NCBI RefSeq assembly: GCF_013155545.1
Contig: NZ_JABJVV010000004.1
Span: 186,001-250,000 of the forward strand
From: Caenimonas soli
GTDB lineage: Bacteria; Pseudomonadota; Gammaproteobacteria; Burkholderiales; Burkholderiaceae_C
Reading direction: 5' to 3'
DNA length: 64,000 nt
Shown: piece after piece, positions 1,455 through 64,000 of the stretch
Layout of the letters: each line of letters begins with the position of its first letter
How positions within the stretch are numbered: position 1 is the stretch's first letter
Notes under the pieces: generated by a model
What the model was told of the DNA's origin: nothing
The model's input: only the letters and a program-made list of their open reading frames with translations
Databases searched by the model: none
Program-made: the position numbers and the translations under genes

Positions 1455-4084
<2,630 letters not shown>

Positions 4085-4202
4085 TAGGAGGAGGCTGAGG
4101 CGGCGCGAAGCCTTTGATTTTACGTTGAAGGGCCATGTCGCGAACCCGCAACAAAATGGGCTGAATGAGGTTTTGTCCTACGTGGCTTGCACGCCTTATG
4201 CG

Positions 4203-4230
4203 TTGATTGTGTAAGGACGTGTGGCACAAT
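4203..4230 (+). promoter_or_regulatory. Candidate sigma-70 promoter of the ompA-family gene
   Basis: TTGATT at 4203-4208 and CACAAT at 4225-4230 are separated by 16 bases and lie about 85 bases upstream of the ompA ATG. This implies an untranslated leader of roughly 75 bases, which is common for abundant outer-membrane proteins. The assignment is by eye and no start site has been mapped. Confidence 0.45.
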
Positions 4231-4313
4231 AAGTTTGACGCTTTTGGTGATGGTCACCTTAAGCGTAGTATTTTCGCAGCGCGGCTGCGGCTTTTTCCCC
4301 GAAGAGGAGAACC

Positions 4314-4988
4314 ATGAAGAAACTGAATAAAGTGGCGCTGATGTTTGCAGCCGCTGCGTTGGCAACCGCCGCAGGTGCGCAAACTCGCGTTACGGCAGCC
4401 GACGGCGGCAACCGTATCGACAACTGGGTCAATGCATCCGGCGACCTGGTGTGGAAGAACGGCACCAACGAACTGTGCTGGCGCAATTCCAACTGGACGC
4501 CTGCCACCGCCGCCAAGGGCTGTGATGGTGCCCTGGTCGCCGCTGCTCCGGCTCCCGCTCCCGTGGCAGCCGCCCCGGCGCCGGCCGTGACTCCTCCGGC
4601 TCCCGCTCCGGCTCCCCAGCCGCCGGCCGCCACCAAGGTGACCTACGCCGCTGACGCTTTCTTCGACTTCGACAAGTCTGTGCTCAAGCCTGAAGGCAAG
4701 GCCAAGCTCGACGACCTGGTCGGCAAGGTCAAGGATATTAACCTGGAAGTTATCATCGCCGTCGGCCATACCGACTCGGTGGGCTCCGATACCTACAACC
4801 AGAAGCTGTCCGTGCGCCGCGCTGAAGCCGTCAAGGCTTACCTGGTGTCCAAGGGCATCGAAAAGAACCGCGTGTACACCGAAGGCAAGGGCGAGAAGCA
4901 GCCTGTGGCCGACAACAAGACCGCCGAAGGCCGCGCCAAGAACCGCCGCGTGGAAATCGAAGTGGTCGGCACCCGCGCCAACCGCTAA
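4314..4988 (+). CDS. OmpA-family outer membrane / peptidoglycan-anchoring protein
   Basis: 224 residues with a Sec signal peptide (cleavage near AGA-QT, about residue 22). A short N-terminal region contains two Cys that could pair. A flexible Ala/Pro hinge (about residues 80-105) leads to a C-terminal OmpA domain (about 108-220). That domain carries the peptidoglycan-binding signature GHTDSVG, followed by [12 protein letters not shown], with the diaminopimelate-contacting Asp and Arg. There is no eight-stranded barrel, so it resembles the short OmpA-like proteins of beta-proteobacteria. A good ribosome site (GAGGAG) precedes the ATG and a strong terminator follows, so it is probably monocistronic and highly expressed. 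Confidence 0.93.
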
Positions 4989-56296: not shown

Positions 56297-56785
56297 TCAG
56301 GGTCCCAGCCACCGCCCCTCCGGCCACGCTCCTCGTTCGACTGCATCCTTCGCGCACCCCACCAAGAGCACGACGGCACGCCGCACGTGCTGGCCGATCG
56401 CCCGGTTGGCTGGAAGGGCAAGAACGATCGTCCGGGTGATCTTCGGATTGCAGAGCGGTGCGGCCGAGACAAGCTTGCGCGCCAGTTCATCGGCGAAGGC
56501 AACCGGCGGAAGAGTCGTGAGGCCATGGCCGCCGAGCACAAGGCTCTTCTGGACGCTCATCGCATTGGTCTCGACCGCGATCCACTGCTGCAGCGTGCCG
56601 GCATAACCCATTGAGATCCTCATGCGGATGCCCGGGTCGTTGGCCGCGACGGCACTCACCAGCGGGCTGGAAATCAGGTCGCAGGTGCTTGGCAGCAGCC
56701 CCACCGTGACGAGGCCGCCGATGCCGTCGACAGCGCCGCCGATTTCGGCCCGTGCGCGATCAAGTTCCAGCATGGCACGGCGCGC
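56297..56785 (-). pseudogene. lysR-type regulator remnant, 5'-truncated with internal deletion
   Basis: The minus-strand frame encodes parts of a LysR substrate-binding domain: LVTVGLLPSTCDLISSP and RMRISMGYAGTLQQW, then VETNAMSVQKSLVLGGHGLT. The helix-turn-helix third is missing; reading upstream becomes unrelated sequence at about 56780. About 80-90 residues expected between GTLQQW and VETNAM are also missing, though the frame stays open. It abuts a 5'-truncated citE on the plus strand. It is unlikely to make a functional regulator. Confidence 0.7.
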
Positions 56786-57079
56786 ATAGACGGAGTGACG
56801 GTCGCCATCGGCGACGACGATAAGCTGCGTGAAGACACTCGGCGGGCGCTGCGCTTCGGCTTCGGTGGCAAGCTGTGCATCCATCCGCGCCAGGTGCCTC
56901 TTATCCACGAGTTCCTGTCGCCGACGGCAGAGGAGGTCGATTGGGCGCGGCGTGTGATTGCCGCGGACGCCACCTCCGGTGGCGCCGCCGTGCAAATCGA
57001 CGGCCGCATGGTGGATCTCCCGGTGGTGCTGCAGGCGCGCCGGACCCTTGCTCGGGCTCGAGGCTCGCAGGCATCATGA
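56783..57079 (+). pseudogene. citE (HpcH/HpaI aldolase family) 3' fragment
   Basis: About 97 codons encode only the C-terminal part of a CitE-type lyase: IDGVTVAIGDDDKLRED, GFGGKLCIHPRQVPLI and DGRMVDLPVVLQARRT. The intact paralogue at 62595-63422 contains matching GFGAKLCIHPCQV and DGRMVDRPVVLQAQRT. The catalytic two thirds are absent. The break at about 56780 coincides with the truncated end of the lysR remnant, so both were cut by one event. A GTG at 56795 could still start a 94-residue peptide. Confidence 0.75.
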
Positions 57080-57110: not shown

Positions 57111-59135
57111 TCAGTCCAGCGTGACCAGACGGGACTCGTGCGGCGCCAGTCTGCCCTGTGCCACAACCTTCGACCAGCGCGCGAGTTCGGCGTTCACCTT
57201 CGCTGAAAGCGCAGCGGGACTACCCGGTTCGACCTGCGCACCATTGCTCTGGAAGCGTTCCACCACTTCCGGATCGTTAAGCACCTCGTTCAACAATTCG
57301 TTGAGCTTGCCGATGGTCTCTGCGGGCGTGCCACTTGGCGCGAACAAACCGTACCACTGCGCGATGTCGACACCGTCCACACCGAGTTCCGCCAAGGTGG
57401 GGACTTCCGCCAGACCGGGCAGTCGCTGCGGACCCGCGACCGCCAATGCCCGCAAGTACCCGGCGCGAATGAACGGATGCGCCGTAAAGAGACTGGGAAA
57501 CATGATCTGCGAACGGCCCGCGACCGTGTCGGCGATCGCCGGGGCCGCGCCTTCGTAGGTCGCACCGGCCATTGACGTGCCACTGCTTAGCTGGAACAGT
57601 TCCGCGGCAAAGTGCGGCGGCGTGCCGTCACCGGCCGAGGCGTAGACGAATCGGCGCGGCTCGGCCTTCAGCTTCGCAATCAGCGTCGCCACGTCGGCAG
57701 GGGCTTTGTCCGGATGGGCCACCATCAGGGTAGGAGATGAGCCGACCAGTCCGATCGGCGCGAAATCGGCGACCGGGTCGTAACCGACCTTCTGCAATGC
57801 AGGATTCATTGCATGCGTGCCGATGTAGCCGAACATGAGCGTGTGGCCGTCCGGTTCGGCAAGCGCCACATACTCGCTCGCAACAGCGCCATTCGCGCCG
57901 GCCCGGTTGTCCACCAGCACTTCCTGACCCAGCAGGGGACTCAGCTTGCCGGCAATGATTCGCGCCATGGCGTCGTTACCGCCACCCGCACGAGTTGGCA
58001 CGATGATCGTGAGAGCCTTGTGCGGGAAGGTCGATGGCACCTTGGCCGTCGTGTCGGGTCGCGAAAACACGTAGTCCGGCAAATGCAGTTCGCCCTGCAT
58101 GATCTTGCGTGCGGTGCGGACCAGCGCGGCGCGCTCGACGGCCGCATGCTCTCCTGTGCCTTTCAACTCGACTTCCACATCGATTTGACCGGCCGGATGC
58201 AGCACGACCAGGGCATGCCGCCCCGGTTCGCGCGCCATGCCGCTTGCCACGGTGCCGGGCAGCGCAAAGGCGCTGGCAACGCCGATGGCACCTGTCACGG
58301 CGTGGGATGCGTGGCAGCGGCGCGGCGTGAAGTAGCGGGAGGTCACGCTGTTGGGCGAATCACCTGCGCTTACCAGCACCGGCTTCGGAATGACACTGTT
58401 CGACACGTCGCCCAGGCCCATCATGCGGCCGGCCTGCAGGCGCAGGGCCTCCAGCCGCTCCAGCAGCGGGGTGTCCGCGTCCAGCGCTGCCGGCTTCTCG
58501 CGACCGGTCAGGCCCAGGTCGGAGGCGCGCACGATCATCAGGGGCATCGCCGCGTCGATGCAGGTCACCTCGACGCCGTCGATGGTGTCGATGCGCTTGC
58601 CAGTCGGAAAGACCTGCCCTGTGACAGCGCCCCAAGCGTCCAGAAAGTTGAGCAGGATGGGTGCCGCAGTCCCGGCCACGCCGTCGATGCGCGCATCGCC
58701 TTCGTAGCTGACGCGACCGCCGGGCGTGCGCACCGTCACGTCGATGCGCGAGCCTGTGTTGACGTTGTATACACGCACGCTGGTGGTTCCATCCCGGGCG
58801 GGAATCAGACCCTGTTCGATCGCGAAAGGTGCCACGCCGGACAGCATGTTGCCGCAGTTGGGCCGTGTGTCGACCGAACGATGCCCGACGCCCACTTGTG
58901 CGAACAGGTAGTCGAGGTCGCAGCCGGGTTGGGTGGAGCGCGAGACGATGGCGACCTTGCTGTTGAGCGTGCTGCCGCCGCCGACCCCATCGAGCTGGAG
59001 GGGATCGGAGGCACCGATGGCACCGATCAGCGCCTGGTCCCGCGCCTCATCACCCTCGGGGAGCCACTCGCGCAGGAAGAACGGCCCTCGCGAGGTGCCG
59101 GCGCGCATGAGCACGCAGGGGATGATCTTGTTCAT
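57111..59135 (-). CDS. PrpF-type isomerase fused in frame to a Bug/TctC solute-binding domain
   Basis: 674 residues in one open frame. Residues 1-359 are a complete PrpF/GalD (DAP-epimerase fold) protein: AGTSRGPFF, GGGSTLNSKVAIV (K60) and RPNCGNMLSG (C94). They end in the usual LPDYVFSR. After a short linker (PDTTAKVPST) residues 370-674 are a full Bug domain, starting at HKALTIIVPTRAGGGNDAMA, exactly where the signal peptide should have been. The Bug part is therefore predicted cytoplasmic and unable to work in the periplasm. The gene lies 1 base after another Bug gene, its close paralogue. Confidence 0.85.
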   Translation of the reverse strand: MNKIIPCVLMRAGTSRGPFFLREWLPEGDEARDQALIGAIGASDPLQLDGVGGGSTLNSKVAIVSRSTQPGCDLDYLFAQVGVGHRSVDTRPNCGNMLSGVAPFAIEQGLIPARDGTTSVRVYNVNTGSRIDVTVRTPGGRVSYEGDARIDGVAGTAAPILLNFLDAWGAVTGQVFPTGKRIDTIDGVEVTCIDAAMPLMIVRASDLGLTGREKPAALDADTPLLERLEALRLQAGRMMGLGDVSNSVIPKPVLVSAGDSPNSVTSRYFTPRRCHASHAVTGAIGVASAFALPGTVASGMAREPGRHALVVLHPAGQIDVEVELKGTGEHAAVERAALVRTARKIMQGELHLPDYVFSRPDTTAKVPSTFPHKALTIIVPTRAGGGNDAMARIIAGKLSPLLGQEVLVDNRAGANGAVASEYVALAEPDGHTLMFGYIGTHAMNPALQKVGYDPVADFAPIGLVGSSPTLMVAHPDKAPADVATLIAKLKAEPRRFVYASAGDGTPPHFAAELFQLSSGTSMAGATYEGAAPAIADTVAGRSQIMFPSLFTAHPFIRAGYLRALAVAGPQRLPGLAEVPTLAELGVDGVDIAQWYGLFAPSGTPAETIGKLNELLNEVLNDPEVVERFQSNGAQVEPGSPAALSAKVNAELARWSKVVAQGRLAPHESRLVTLD

Positions 59136-59136
59136 C

Positions 59137-60108
59137 TCAGTCGGCTGTCAGCTTTGCAGCCTGCACCACCTTCTTCCACTTGACCTGTTCCTGCTCAACA
59201 TAACTGCGCAACTGGTCCGGCGACATGGTGGAGACCTCCGCGCCGTGGCCTTCGAGGCGCTGGACGACGCTCTTGTCAGCGAGCACCTGGTTAAGGACCT
59301 TGTTGAGTTGGTCCACCACCGGTTTGGGCGTCTTTGCGGGCGCGAAGATAGCGTACCACTGGGAGACATCGACGCCGGTGATGCCTTGTTCCTTGAGCGT
59401 CGGCACGTCGGGCATCAGCGCCGAGCGCTTCTCCCCGGCGACGCCCACCGCCTTCAGCTTGCCGCCCTTCACGTAGGGCATGGCGGTAAACAGGCTGGGG
59501 AACATCACCTGGGTCTGGCCGCCGATGGTGTCGGTGATCGCCGGTGCGGAGCCCTTGTACGGCACGTGAAGCATCGCGGTGCCCGTCGAGAGCTTGAACA
59601 TCTCGGCCGCGAAGTGGGGCGCCGTGCCATTGCCCGCCGAGGCGTAGCTGCTCTTGTCGGGGGCAGCCTTGAGCATCGCCACCACCTCCTTGGCGTTGCT
59701 GGCCTTGACCGTGGGCGCCACGACCATCAAGGTAGCCGACGAGCCGACCATGGCGACGGGTTCGAAATCTTTTACCGGGTCGTAGCGCAGCTTCTGCAAT
59801 GACGGGTTCATGGCGTGAGTCGCGATGTAGCCCAGCATCAGCGTGTAGCCGTCAGGTGGGGCGCGCATGACGAATTCGCTCGCGATCGCGCCATTGGCGC
59901 CGGCCTTGTTGTCGACGATGACGGGCTGCTTGAGGATCGCCGACATGGCTTGGCCGACGACCCGCGCCATCGCATCGTTGGCGCCGCCCGCAGCGGTCGG
60001 CACCACGATGGTGATGGCCTTTTCGGGATAAGCGGCGAATGCGCTCCCGCAGGCGAGGGTGGCGGCCAGTGCGGCGGCGCCGAAAAGATGAGGTCGGGAA
60101 AATTGCAT
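59137..60108 (-). CDS. Bug/TctC-type periplasmic solute-binding protein
   Basis: 323 residues with a signal peptide (cleavage near AFA-AY, residue 25). The Bug pattern YPEKAITIVVPTAAGGANDAM is followed by VIVDNKAGANGAIASEFV and SYASAGNGTAPHFAAEMFKL. Its sequence is clearly similar to the Bug half of the downstream fusion (for example shared GANGA.ASE and HFAAE blocks). It probably binds the organic acid degraded by this cluster. It is divergent from the LysR gene, with 156 bases between. Confidence 0.92.
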   Translation of the reverse strand: MQFSRPHLFGAAALAATLACGSAFAAYPEKAITIVVPTAAGGANDAMARVVGQAMSAILKQPVIVDNKAGANGAIASEFVMRAPPDGYTLMLGYIATHAMNPSLQKLRYDPVKDFEPVAMVGSSATLMVVAPTVKASNAKEVVAMLKAAPDKSSYASAGNGTAPHFAAEMFKLSTGTAMLHVPYKGSAPAITDTIGGQTQVMFPSLFTAMPYVKGGKLKAVGVAGEKRSALMPDVPTLKEQGITGVDVSQWYAIFAPAKTPKPVVDQLNKVLNQVLADKSVVQRLEGHGAEVSTMSPDQLRSYVEQEQVKWKKVVQAAKLTAD

Positions 60109-60201: not shown

Positions 60202-60264
60202 GCATGTTTAGAATCGATTGATGCGCACCGTCGATCAGTGAGGCGTTTTTCTGAGGAACAGCCG

Positions 60265-61194
60265 ATGGCCATCAACTTCAATCTCAACGACCTTCAGGCT
60301 TTTCGTGCCGTGGCCGAACTCAGCAGCTTCCGCAAGGCGGCAGAAGCGCTTCATGTCTCGCAACCCGCCTTCAGCAGGCGTATCGAGAAACTCGAGGAGG
60401 CCCTGGGCGTCCAACTGCTCGAGCGCACCACGCGGCACGTGAGCCTGACGTCTGTGGGCCGCGATTTCGACCGCAAGGTGCAGCAACTTCTCGATGACCT
60501 GGACCACACGCTGCTCGGCATAAGGGGCGTGGCCGCGACCCGCATGGGCGAGGTAACGATTGCCTGCGTGCCGTCGACCGTCTACTACTTCCTGCCGCAG
60601 GTGATTTCACGCTACCACGAGCGCTACCCGAAGATCAGGGTCAAGGTGTTCGATGCCAGCGCCAACGAAGTGCTTACGGCGGTGTCGCGCAGCGAAGCCG
60701 ACTTCGGACTCAACTTCGTCGGCGGTCAGGAACCCGACATCGAGTTCAAGCCGCTGATGGAGGAGCGCTTCGTCGCTGCTTGCCGGCGCGACCATCCGTT
60801 GGCAAAGAAGCGCCGCGCCACATGGACCGAACTGGCGCAGTATGACTACATCTCCGTGAGCAAGGCGTCCGGGAACCGGCTGTTGCTCGATCAGGCGCTT
60901 TCCAATGTGCCGGGACGGCCGCAGAGCATCTATGAGACAGAGCACGTGACCACAATGCTCGGGTTGGTCGAAGCGGGCCTCGGCGTGGCCGCGGTGCCAT
61001 CTATCGCTATGCCGGGCGCCGATCATCCGCTTCTGGTGAGCGTGCCGCTCCTCGATCCGGTCGTCACCCGCAAGATCGGACTGATCCGGCGCAAGGGGCG
61101 CTCCCTGTCCCCGGCGGCCCAGCAGCTCTATGAATTTTTCACCGAGATGAAGGTCAAGCGCGGAAAGCCCGCAAGCCGACGCACTGCGTCCTGA
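60265..61194 (+). CDS. LysR-family transcriptional regulator
   Basis: 309 residues from the ATG with GAGGAA upstream; an in-frame GTG lies 27 bases earlier. An N-terminal winged helix (LNDLQAFRAVAELSSFRKAAEALHVSQPAFSRRIEKLE) is followed by a substrate-binding domain (VTIACVPSTVYYFLPQVISR). It is divergent from the Bug/PrpF-Bug operon and convergent with the lyase operon, so it may control both. The effector is probably the organic acid or its CoA ester, by analogy. Confidence 0.93.
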   Translation: MAINFNLNDLQAFRAVAELSSFRKAAEALHVSQPAFSRRIEKLEEALGVQLLERTTRHVSLTSVGRDFDRKVQQLLDDLDHTLLGIRGVAATRMGEVTIACVPSTVYYFLPQVISRYHERYPKIRVKVFDASANEVLTAVSRSEADFGLNFVGGQEPDIEFKPLMEERFVAACRRDHPLAKKRRATWTELAQYDYISVSKASGNRLLLDQALSNVPGRPQSIYETEHVTTMLGLVEAGLGVAAVPSIAMPGADHPLLVSVPLLDPVVTRKIGLIRRKGRSLSPAAQQLYEFFTEMKVKRGKPASRRTAS

Positions 61195-61212: not shown

Positions 61213-62559
61213 TCAGCGCCGGTGGGCCAAGACCCGGTCGACCATCACTCCGGCTTGGCCGAGGTGGTTCGCGGGATCGCACATGGCTTCGAGCTGGGCA
61301 CGCGTGACGTGCTTGCAGATCTCACCGTGCGCAGCCAGTATCTCGATCAGGGGGCGGTTTTCCTTGATCGCCTGCCGGCACAGGTCATACACGAGGTCGT
61401 GCGCGTATTCGCGGCCGATGTACGGGCCCAGGCCCATCATCACCGCCTCCGACATCACCAGCCCGTTGGTCATGTCGATGTTGGCGCGCATGCGCGCGGC
61501 GTCCACTTCGAGACCTTTGAGAACGAACTTGGTCTGCTTCAGCGCTCCCGACATGAGGCAGAAGATCTCGGGAAGCGAGACCCATTCGATTTCCCACGGG
61601 CCGGTGGAGCGCTCGTGGTCGGCCACCATCGCGTCCATTAGTGCCGCGGCATGCTGGCGCGCCACCGAGATGTTGGCGTGGATGTAGAGACAGGAGATCG
61701 GGTTGCGCTTTTGCGGCATGGTGGACGACGAGCCCCGGCCCGGCGCGTACGGCTCGAACACCTCTGCCACCTCGGTTTGCATCATCAGCTTGACGTCCAT
61801 CGCGATCTTGCCGAGCGAGCCACCGACCAGAGCCAGGAAAGCGCCGACTTCGGCAATGGTGTCGCGCACGGTGTGCCAGGAGATCAGCGGCTGGGCCAGG
61901 CCCAGTTCCTTCATGAGGCCGGCCTGCGTTTCCATCGCGCCTTTTTCCAGTGAGGAGAGGGTGCCCGAGGCGCCGCCAAACTCGCCCATCAGCACGCGCG
62001 GCTTCAACTGCTGCAGGCGTTCGCGGTGGCGATCGATGCCGGCCAGGATGCTGGCCATCTTGTAGCCGAAGGTTATGGGCGTGGCCTGCTGCAGGTTGGA
62101 GCGGCCGATGACGGGCGTGTCACGGTATTTTTTCGCAAGGGAAGCGAGAGCGTCGGCGATCTCGTCCAGGTCTTGCTCGACCAGCGCCAGACCCTCGCGC
62201 ATCTGCAGCACTGCTGCGGTATCGGTGATGTCCTGGGTGGTGGCGCCCCAGTGGCAGTACTCGCCAAGCTTGTCGCGACAGTTGGCGTTGATCTGGTTGA
62301 CCACGGCGATGATGGGGTAGCCGATCTGCTCGGTCTTGGCCTTGAGCTTGTCCCAGTCGATCTGCGACAGGTTGCAGTTGCGGACGATCTCGTCCGCCGC
62401 TTCCTTCGGGATGATTCCCAATTCGCCCTGGACTTTGGCAAGGGCGCGCTCGATGTCGAGGTACTTGGCGGTGCGGTTTTCGTCGGACCAGACGTCGCGC
62501 ATTCGCGAGTCGCTGAACATGTCGCCGAAGATGCGTGAGTCGATGATGGTGGAGGCCAT
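61213..62559 (-). CDS. Fumarase/aspartase-superfamily lyase (PurB/PcaB-like)
   Basis: 448 residues from the ATG at 62559; a longer frame would run into the CitE gene. The superfamily signature is SSTMPQKRNPISCLY. HWGATTQDITDT, TPVIGRSNLQQATPITFG and VADHERSTGPWEIEW resemble adenylosuccinate lyase and 3-carboxymuconate cycloisomerase. A biosynthetic purB is unlikely in this operon, so it more probably adds or removes water, ammonia or a ring bond on a dicarboxylate intermediate. It lies 35 bases after the CitE-like gene. Confidence 0.87.
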   Translation of the reverse strand: MASTIIDSRIFGDMFSDSRMRDVWSDENRTAKYLDIERALAKVQGELGIIPKEAADEIVRNCNLSQIDWDKLKAKTEQIGYPIIAVVNQINANCRDKLGEYCHWGATTQDITDTAAVLQMREGLALVEQDLDEIADALASLAKKYRDTPVIGRSNLQQATPITFGYKMASILAGIDRHRERLQQLKPRVLMGEFGGASGTLSSLEKGAMETQAGLMKELGLAQPLISWHTVRDTIAEVGAFLALVGGSLGKIAMDVKLMMQTEVAEVFEPYAPGRGSSSTMPQKRNPISCLYIHANISVARQHAAALMDAMVADHERSTGPWEIEWVSLPEIFCLMSGALKQTKFVLKGLEVDAARMRANIDMTNGLVMSEAVMMGLGPYIGREYAHDLVYDLCRQAIKENRPLIEILAAHGEICKHVTRAQLEAMCDPANHLGQAGVMVDRVLAHRR

Positions 62560-62594
62560 GGTATGTGTCGCTCTCTGGTAGGAAGTGGATGGGG

Positions 62595-63422
62595 TCAGTC
62601 GCGGGCCAGGCCCAAGGTGCGCTGCGCCTGCAGCACCACCGGACGGTCGACCATGCGACCGTCGAGCCGGGCGGCGCCCGGCGATGCGGCATCGGCCGCG
62701 ATCACGCGCCGCGCCCAGTCCAACGCTTCGGCGCTGGGCCGCAGCGCCGCGTGGATCGGCTCGACCTGGCAGGGGTGGATGCACAGCTTGGCGCCGAAGC
62801 CCTGACCTCTCGCGACGGCCAGGTCGGCGAGCAGGCGCACCGGGTCGTCGAACTGCGGTGTGATGCCGGCCACCGGGGTTGGAAGGCCCGCGACGCGCGA
62901 GGCGAGCGCGATGCGGCTGGCCGCATACGCCAGTCCCGAGGCGTCGCTCGTCATGTCGATGTCAAGATCGAGGGCGAAATCAAGGGTGCCGAAGACCAGG
63001 CGGGAGGCGCCGGCAGCGGCCACTGTGTCGACCTGTACGACGCCGCGCGCGCTTTCGATCAATGCGAGCACGCTCGCATTGCGCAGCGCCGCCTTTGTCT
63101 CGGCAATCTGCTGCGCCGACTCGGCCTTGGGCAGCAGGACGCTGCTGGCGCCGGCCTCTCGAAGCGCCCGCAGGTCGTCGGCAAACCACGTCGACTCGGC
63201 GTCGTTGATGCGGACCACGATGCGCGACCTGTCGGCGGGCGACGCGCCCATGAACCAGTTCGCGATCATTTGGCGGGCCGCGGCCTTGTCGTCGGCCGCG
63301 ACCGCGTCTTCGAGATCCAGGATCACGGCGTCGGCGCCGCTCGCCAGCGCCTTGCCGAACCGTTCCGGCCGCGTTCCGGGAACGAACAGGTAGGTGCGCG
63401 GCTGGATGGGAGCTTCCAACAT
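62595..63422 (-). CDS. HpcH/HpaI aldolase / citrate-lyase beta (CitE-like) family protein
   Basis: 275 residues from the ATG at 63422, 10 bases after the CoA-transferase stop. RTYLFVPGTRPERFGKALAS and DAVILDLEDAVAADDK are the CitE N-terminal motifs, including Glu/Asp metal contacts. VVRIND, LPKAES and GTLDFALDLDID follow. Family members cleave CoA esters such as citramalyl-, malyl- or citryl-CoA. With a CoA-transferase upstream, a (methyl)malyl- or citramalyl-CoA type cleavage is the likeliest role. A 3' fragment of a paralogue lies at 56783-57079. Confidence 0.9.
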   Translation of the reverse strand: MLEAPIQPRTYLFVPGTRPERFGKALASGADAVILDLEDAVAADDKAAARQMIANWFMGASPADRSRIVVRINDAESTWFADDLRALREAGASSVLLPKAESAQQIAETKAALRNASVLALIESARGVVQVDTVAAAGASRLVFGTLDFALDLDIDMTSDASGLAYAASRIALASRVAGLPTPVAGITPQFDDPVRLLADLAVARGQGFGAKLCIHPCQVEPIHAALRPSAEALDWARRVIAADAASPGAARLDGRMVDRPVVLQAQRTLGLARD

Positions 63423-63432
63423 CGGGCTCGCC

Positions 63433-64000
63433 TCAGACCGCGTTCGTTGCGTGCAGGGCCGCAATCTCGGCCGCGCCGTAGCCCAGCTCGGCGAGGATCG
63501 TATCGGTGTGCTGGCCAAGCGCGGGCACGGGGTCCATGCGCGGCCCCACGTCCCAGGTGCCCGGCGGCAGCATGGCAGGCAAGGATCCCTTGGGCGAGCC
63601 GACTTCCGTCCAGCGCCCGCGTGCCTTGAGCTGCGGATGCGCCCAGACATCGTGCATGGTGTTGACGCGAGCGTTGGCAATCTGCGCGAGTTCGAGCCGC
63701 TCCACGACCTGCGCACCGGTGAGGGGCGAGAAGGCCTCGACGATGATCCGGCGCAGCGCGTCACGCTCGGCCACCCGCTTGAAGTTTGCGGTGAAGCGCG
63801 GGTCGCTGGCGAGATCCGGTTGCTCCAGGACCTTGTCGCAAAAGCTGACCCATTCGCGCTCGTTCTGCAGGCCCAGCATTACGGCCGTGCCGTCGCCCGC
63901 CGGGAAGGGACCGTACGGATAGATGGTGGCATGGCTCGCGCCCGTGCGCGGCGGCGGCGCCGCGCCCTCAAAGGCGTAGTAGAGAGGGTAGCTCGTCCAT
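63433..64000 (-). CDS. CaiB/BaiF family CoA-transferase, C-terminal part (cut by window edge)
   Basis: About 189 C-terminal codons are present; the catalytic Asp region lies beyond base 64000. FPAGDGTAVMLGLQNEREW, ADFPE-like LASDPRFTANFKRVAERDAL and WAHPQLKARGRW are typical of family III CoA-transferases. These enzymes move CoA between organic acids. It is the first visible gene of the leftward operon with citE and the lyase, so it probably activates the substrate as a CoA ester. Confidence 0.88.
   Translation of the reverse strand, partial: WTSYPLYYAFEGAAPPPRTGASHATIYPYGPFPAGDGTAVMLGLQNEREWVSFCDKVLEQPDLASDPRFTANFKRVAERDALRRIIVEAFSPLTGAQVVERLELAQIANARVNTMHDVWAHPQLKARGRWTEVGSPKGSLPAMLPPGTWDVGPRMDPVPALGQHTDTILAELGYGAAEIAALHATNAV

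Follow-up and report, generated by a model that had tools for sequence, protein, structure and literature searches.

The DNA analysed here (the window) is a stretch of 64,000 nucleotides from Caenimonas soli. A single uninterrupted open frame of 674 amino acids lies on its minus strand at 57111-59135 (stop codon at 57111-57113) and joins a PrpF-family enzyme to a Bug/TctC solute-binding domain. The features of the locus are as follows.

57111-58028, minus strand: signal-less Bug/TctC half of the fused gene, residues 370-674, with the stop codon (Pfam, fold match).
58029-58058, minus strand: linker of about ten residues (360-369), modelled with low AlphaFold2 confidence.
58059-59135, minus strand: PrpF half (4-oxalomesaconate tautomerase-like), residues 1-359 (Pfam, NCBIfam, alignment, fold match).
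59137-60108, minus strand: standalone bug gene with a signal-peptide-like N-terminus, upstream, ending one base before the start of the fused gene.
60238-61194, plus strand: divergent LysR-family regulator.
61213-62559, minus strand: PcaB/adenylosuccinate lyase-like lyase, with the start inferred at MASTIID inside a longer open reading frame (61213-62784).
62595-63422, minus strand: HpcH/CitE-type C-C lyase, with the start inferred at MLEAPI inside a longer open reading frame (62595-63764).
63433-64000, minus strand: class III (CaiB/BaiF) CoA-transferase, extending beyond the end of the window.

The next gene after the CoA-transferase, outside the window, encodes a MaoC/FAS1-like hydratase. 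The interval between putA and the fused gene (56297-57078) contains remnants, including a partial LysR substrate-binding domain in a 232-residue frame and, on the opposite strand, a fragment that is 59% identical to the neighbouring CitE/HpcH lyase.

Domains in the fused protein were assigned with Pfam. The PrpF domain covers residues 5-353 (E value 2.7e-110, 369.2 bits against a cut-off of 27, near full length) and the TctC/Bug domain covers residues 391-659 (3.2e-52, 178.2 bits against a cut-off of 27, profile positions 2-270 of 274). The motif LPDYVFSR marks the end of the PrpF half, at residue 359, and a linker of some ten residues comes next. The initial annotation, which had described a complete PrpF and a complete signal-less Bug domain in one frame with a ten-residue linker, is borne out by the 674-residue frame and the two near full-length domains. 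PrpF/GalD enzymes are cytoplasmic, and Bug-type solute-binding proteins are regarded as periplasmic, exported by means of a signal peptide; the fused Bug half of the window lacks the N-terminal signal peptide on which export of Bug/TctC proteins depends. No signal-peptide-like hydrophobic stretch was found between the two domains at the window junction, as judged from length and hydropathy rather than with a trained predictor. An internal start codon with a Shine-Dalgarno sequence was also sought in the window linker and none was found, so that the window gene does not have the ribosome-binding site and start codon of an embedded gene. AlphaFold2 modelled both domains as folded, with the linker (residues 356-369) at a pLDDT of less than 50 and a pTM of 0.51; a flexible tether with no fixed or confident arrangement of the domains is predicted. 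The Bug half gave fold matches with a target-normalised TM-score of about 0.9 to several members of the group formed by RPA4515, BugD, BugE, Bug27, MatC, TphC and a terephthalate-binding protein.

As had been proposed at the outset, proteins with PrpF and TctC in one chain were sought across Burkholderiales. Duplicates were excluded, as were loci lacking a usable PrpF, matches to PrpF that begin beyond residue 10 (L016 included) and truncated non-fused frames; 154 non-redundant loci were retained. The set comprises 47 split loci and two fused classes: class B (45 loci) has a signal peptide inside the frame, and class A (62 loci, including the window) has none. The two fused classes were assigned by linker length and hydropathy. 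Three further genomes of the genus carry the same unbroken fused frame, with identities of 89, 87 and 77%. An artefact of assembly or sequencing has nothing in its favour and a probability close to nil; the presence of the same fused frame in many independent Burkholderiales assemblies refutes it and also rules out chance or a one-strain accident.

In the family sample (399 genomes), a close PrpF (E value of 1e-130 or better) was found in 61 genomes. The gene is fused in 46 of the 49 genomes with a PrpF at least 73% identical and split in all 12 with a PrpF 62-69% identical, bug lying directly downstream in 11 of these 12. The Ramlibacter sample (60 genomes) contains a PrpF at 1e-60 or better in 19 genomes: six are fused without a signal (that of G003 being present solely in pieces, at contig ends), a further seven are fused and have a signal, four are split and two are distant. 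The order-wide sample gave a match at 1e-90 in 49 of 399 genomes and includes two fused class A loci from outside the family, L118 (G190) and L012 (G041). Also outside the family, genome G322 of the order sample carries a fused-length frame of 688 amino acids, and in a member of another family (G416:C4:1199-2263) a distant PrpF (49%) lies inside a 674-residue open frame. Among the best 80 of 278 relatives in the named collection, 80 of 80 are fused; these were picked by their match to the whole fusion, which biases the count, and the 399-genome family sample is the fairer one. The fused genera among these 80 are Ramlibacter, Variovorax, Pseudorhodoferax, Hydrogenophaga, Rhodoferax, Polaromonas, Ottowia, Cupriavidus, Rubrivivax, Ideonella, Roseateles, Massilia, Noviherbaspirillum and others. 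The PrpF-Bug fusion is a widespread and apparently selected architecture of many soil and water bacteria. No published description of it was found in the open-licence full texts searched. One paper found in the literature search gives PrpF and TctC as separate genes in the passages available from it, and the available passages of PMC5812351 mention TctAB fusions and do not contain PrpF.

The junction of the class B genes was analysed at the nucleotide level. The Gly-Asp pair at this position is encoded by GGA-GAC in 45 of 45 genes; the hexamer is Shine-Dalgarno-like and lies just upstream of an internal start codon (ATG in 40 genes, GTG in five), which begins 9 or 12 nt past the first base of GGA. 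GGA makes up 145 of 3021 Gly codons (4.8%) in class B genes, and of their 58 conserved Gly columns the junction alone is fixed for it, in all 44 aligned rows, the runner-up column reaching 15.6%. A start codon in the linker together with a Shine-Dalgarno-like motif was found in 45 of 45 class B genes versus four of 62 class A genes, the window gene being outside these four. The residues that follow the internal start resemble a signal peptide, with Lys or Arg near the start in 44 of 45 and an A-x-A-like end in 43 of 45. On these features, the one class B frame probably gives both a PrpF-Bug fusion and, by internal initiation, a free exported Bug. In the split form L015 the same AAGGAGAC precedes the overlapping bug start, so that the site may predate the fusion. 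A programmed frameshift that would free PrpF in class B was considered and rejected: a TGA in the +1 frame overlies the internal start in 38 of the 45 genes and is absent from seven, and hence is not a fixed device.

Trees were calculated separately for the two halves. The 26 of 47 split loci that encode distant PrpFs (less than 56% identity) were kept out of them, leaving 128 rows. In a quick PrpF tree of these rows the split forms are for the most part basal, and class A lies inside a grade formed by class B, with 58 class A rows in one supported group and four elsewhere. Three split or broken rows (L178, L183 and L186, of which L183 is from a fragmentary assembly) lie inside the fused group of 110. 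L178 and L186 have a stop codon after PrpF and a separately starting bug, yet belong to this group, which indicates that the fusion can be lost. In a careful PrpF tree (52 rows) the Ramlibacter split forms L013 and L015 fall among class B and may thus have reverted to the split state instead of retaining it from the ancestor. For the PrpF half, class A as one clade was rejected (AU p = 0.00013, 52 of the 128 rows). In the Bug-half tree, by contrast, all 62 class A rows group together (support 84); in a second Bug-half tree 16 of 18 class A rows do so (95/98, with the bootstrap not settled), and a constraint joining L085 to L088 was not rejected (p = 0.34). The conflict between the two halves over class A could stem from convergence, long-branch pull or recombination of the Bug half, and the signal would have been lost in one to four events.

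Split, adjacent prpF and bug genes are likely to be the ancestral state, judging from the sequences. The window's form looks derived, with the signal and the internal start lost and an exported Bug encoded next door. The initial annotation had suggested, as one of two options, that a single precise deletion removed the prpF stop codon and the bug signal peptide. This is disfavoured, as class B lacks the stop codon and keeps both the signal and the internal start; together with the position of class A among class B in the PrpF tree, this indicates two steps. Nor is the fusion restricted to one strain with separate genes in its relatives, the outcome that had been named as grounds for abandoning the idea: some relatives do have the two genes apart, in part as what is likely to be the ancestral condition and in part through reversion within the fused group. 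All three forms (split, fused with an internal start and fused without a signal) occur within Ramlibacter, a natural series in which the path can be tested.

The standalone bug product of the window is 54% identical to the fused Bug half. This identity and the separate places of the two in the Bug tree rule out a recent duplication of the neighbouring bug gene. Among loci longer than 8 kb, the flanks encode a separate Bug at 40 of the 50 belonging to class A, 36 of these 40 Bugs (counted by eye) sharing at least 62% identity with the standalone Bug of the window; at the other ten, none was found in the flanks examined. The corresponding count for class B is six of 29 loci longer than 8 kb, and none of these six Bugs exceeds 45% identity. 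In the Bug tree, class A contributes 35 standalone Bugs that belong to four groups, which suggests that a separate Bug was recruited more than once.

Selection was estimated as dN/dS by the Nei-Gojobori method, using the ratio of sums over pairs with all dS values between 0.15 and 1.5. The trio of the window and its two closest relatives (three pairs) gave values of 0.047 for PrpF, 0.130 for the fused Bug and 0.070 for the standalone Bug. In 31 genomes with all three genes (291 pairs) they are 0.130, 0.279 and 0.223, respectively. PrpF and the fused Bug gave 0.149 and 0.309 in class A (1219 pairs) and 0.240 and 0.207 in class B (980 pairs). The constraint on the fused Bug is two to three times weaker than that on PrpF in the window trio and in class A. 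The ratios, well below neutrality, indicate that the fused Bug half is under purifying selection, with a lower constraint after loss of the signal. In the comparison with the paralogue at 59137-60108, which the initial annotation had called for, the fused half is constrained, and less so than the paralogue both in the trio and in the 31 genomes. The length of the linker has changed at least ten times in class B and 17 times in class A, as counted solely in fused members. Since these are by their definition in frame, the comparison made here, with those rows of the fused group that are split or broken, is a rough one. About two thirds of insertions and deletions would be expected to break the frame if the frame were unimportant. 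Set against these many changes, only three of 110 rows are split or broken, and the fusion itself therefore seems to be selected.

Exported Bugs have 100 conserved positions in this comparison; the window is identical at 93 of them, and 81 are retained by at least 90% of class A. The family motifs, including the GGxND loop, are retained in class A, and full-length frames of 658-689 amino acids are present in all 62 non-redundant loci, a set that is itself defined by the open frame. The early observation that the Bug half keeps its motifs and has no stop codon is upheld. A recently dead Bug domain, one of the two readings first offered, is disfavoured by the dN/dS values (about 0.13 in the window trio and 0.31 in class A) and by the frame being open in 62 loci. 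The other, a Bug domain at work in the cytoplasm, is favoured by the constraint and the kept motifs, with the weaker constraint relative to PrpF telling against it. In L016 (G003:C77), a class A locus at a contig end, about 38 residues of the Bug half are missing in frame, through decay or misassembly. Ala382, which precedes the GG loop, is replaced in 61 of 62 class A proteins (Ser in 35, Arg in 24, Phe in one and Val in one); Ala is the residue here in class B (44 of 45) and in both standalone (33 of 35) and split Bugs (18 of 19). In Bug proteins, the GG loop that follows lines the ligand cleft. This near-uniform replacement suggests that binding in class A has been changed rather than lost.

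The identity of the PrpF half was assessed with family models. It passes the NCBIfam model NF033377 (4-oxalomesaconate tautomerase; 497.9 against a cut-off of 440) and fails the equivalog cut-off of TIGR02334 (2-methylaconitate isomerase PrpF; 194.5 bits against 440.55). Its nearest solved relatives are Escherichia coli YbhH (6otv; 55% identical in the fold match) and LigU. Lys60 and Cys94 align with the active-site Lys66 and Cys100 of LigU, which were taken to be the mutated LigU residues from the entry titles LigU(K66M) and LigU(C100S). The neighbouring genes were scored in the same manner. CoA-transferase, hydratase and citramalyl-CoA lyase, the three enzyme types of itaconate degradation, also occur near the fused gene. 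Differing from that pathway, the CitE-like protein of the window lies far below the RipC cut-off (153.9 bits against 375) and the PcaB-like lyase scores above the cut-off of one PcaB model (359.9 against 355.75), which points rather to aromatic-acid pathways. The operon context is mixed, itaconate-like in part and aromatic-acid-like in part, with 4-oxalomesaconate as a candidate substrate. Our guess is that the pathway of the window acts on an unsaturated di- or tricarboxylate. On plasmid 3 of Variovorax sp. SRS16 (L207), a dctA C4-dicarboxylate transporter gene at 3089-4420 belongs to the cluster, a hint at the class of substrate; the plasmid record annotates the class A gene merely as 4-oxalomesaconate tautomerase.

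We propose, with slightly better than even confidence, that the fused gene encodes a PrpF-family isomerase carrying a flexibly tethered cytoplasmic Bug ligand-binding domain, with two products in class B and with export in class A left to a separate bug gene. The ancestor would have had adjacent, separate prpF and bug genes, as more distant relatives do. Loss of the prpF stop codon would have given class B, in which bug keeps its signal peptide, its start codon and a Shine-Dalgarno-like site within the joint frame, and this frame would produce a PrpF-Bug fusion as well as an independently initiated exported Bug. In class A the signal and internal start would then have been lost and a separate bug gene would have taken over export. 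The fused Bug would stay in the cytoplasm because it is of use there to bind the di- or tricarboxylate of the pathway beside the isomerase, where it might hold the substrate, hand it over or regulate the enzyme. More tentatively, and short of even confidence, we suggest that one gene originally supplied both an enzyme with a cytoplasmic Bug and an exported Bug, and that after recruitment of a second Bug the signal was dropped and the cytoplasmic Bug domain became a dedicated ligand receptor of the isomerase. If this is true, a tripartite-transporter binding protein has been put to use inside the cell; the conserved enzyme-Bug fusion suggests that one bacterial group keeps a Bug domain intracellular.

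The weaker constraint on the class A Bug half can be read differently. It may be a passenger in slow decay, made dispensable when the separate exported Bug took over, its frame being preserved since a truncated or misfolded tail would damage PrpF. The dN/dS of the fused Bug, about double that of PrpF in class A and below it in class B, fits this account, as does the in-frame deletion in L016. We nevertheless regard it as unlikely, since dN/dS is well under 1, 81 of the 100 conserved positions are retained, every class A locus of the set (defined, as noted, by the open frame) has a full-length frame and the near-uniform replacement at 382 is unlike drift. Somewhat less probable still is a purely structural service of the Bug half to PrpF (solubility, oligomer formation or stability) without ligand binding. 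The flexible linker between two intact folds in the AlphaFold2 model and a sequence constraint weaker than in exported Bugs would suit such a role; the fact that the motifs of the Bug family, the GGxND loop among them, have been kept would not, and close relatives function without the fusion, judged by gene content.

For class B, the full-length product might instead be a membrane polyprotein in which PrpF remains inside, the internal signal inserts and the Bug domain crosses the membrane, perhaps to be cut by signal peptidase, a topology that class A would have lost. Every class B frame does contain a signal-like hydrophobic stretch, which has an A-x-A-like end in 43 of 45. This arrangement is improbable, because it would make the conserved GGA-GAC and the internal start needless. 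Large folded N-terminal enzyme domains are unusual ahead of a Sec signal, and residues 341-388 of a class B protein were not confidently modelled by AlphaFold2 (less than 50). Our preferred reading remains that of a tethered cytoplasmic Bug domain, with an independently initiated exported Bug in class B.

The proteins and genes of this family were compared with known systems. With GalD, LigU and YbhH of the PrpF family, the window PrpF shares the passed cut-off and the active-site Lys and Cys; in contrast to them it has a C-terminal Bug domain, and its operon adds a CitE-like lyase to a CoA-transferase and a MaoC-like hydratase, which may mean a different substrate. With the Bug/TctC proteins RPA4515, BugD, BugE, Bug27, MatC and TphC, the Bug half shares a nearly full TctC domain and the fold, and it differs from them in having no signal peptide, in lying behind a cytoplasmic enzyme and in the altered residue beside the GG loop. 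The Shigella Spa33 variants are said to come from an in-frame embedded gene with its own ribosome-binding site. Such a gene is also described for Ms6 lysA/Lysin241 (PMC3111421). The window gene itself, unlike these two, has no internal start. Class B shares with them an internal Shine-Dalgarno-like site and start codon and a predicted shorter in-frame product. It differs in that the inner product has a predicted signal peptide, so that the two products would reside in different compartments; class B is a clean candidate for a single frame with products in both.
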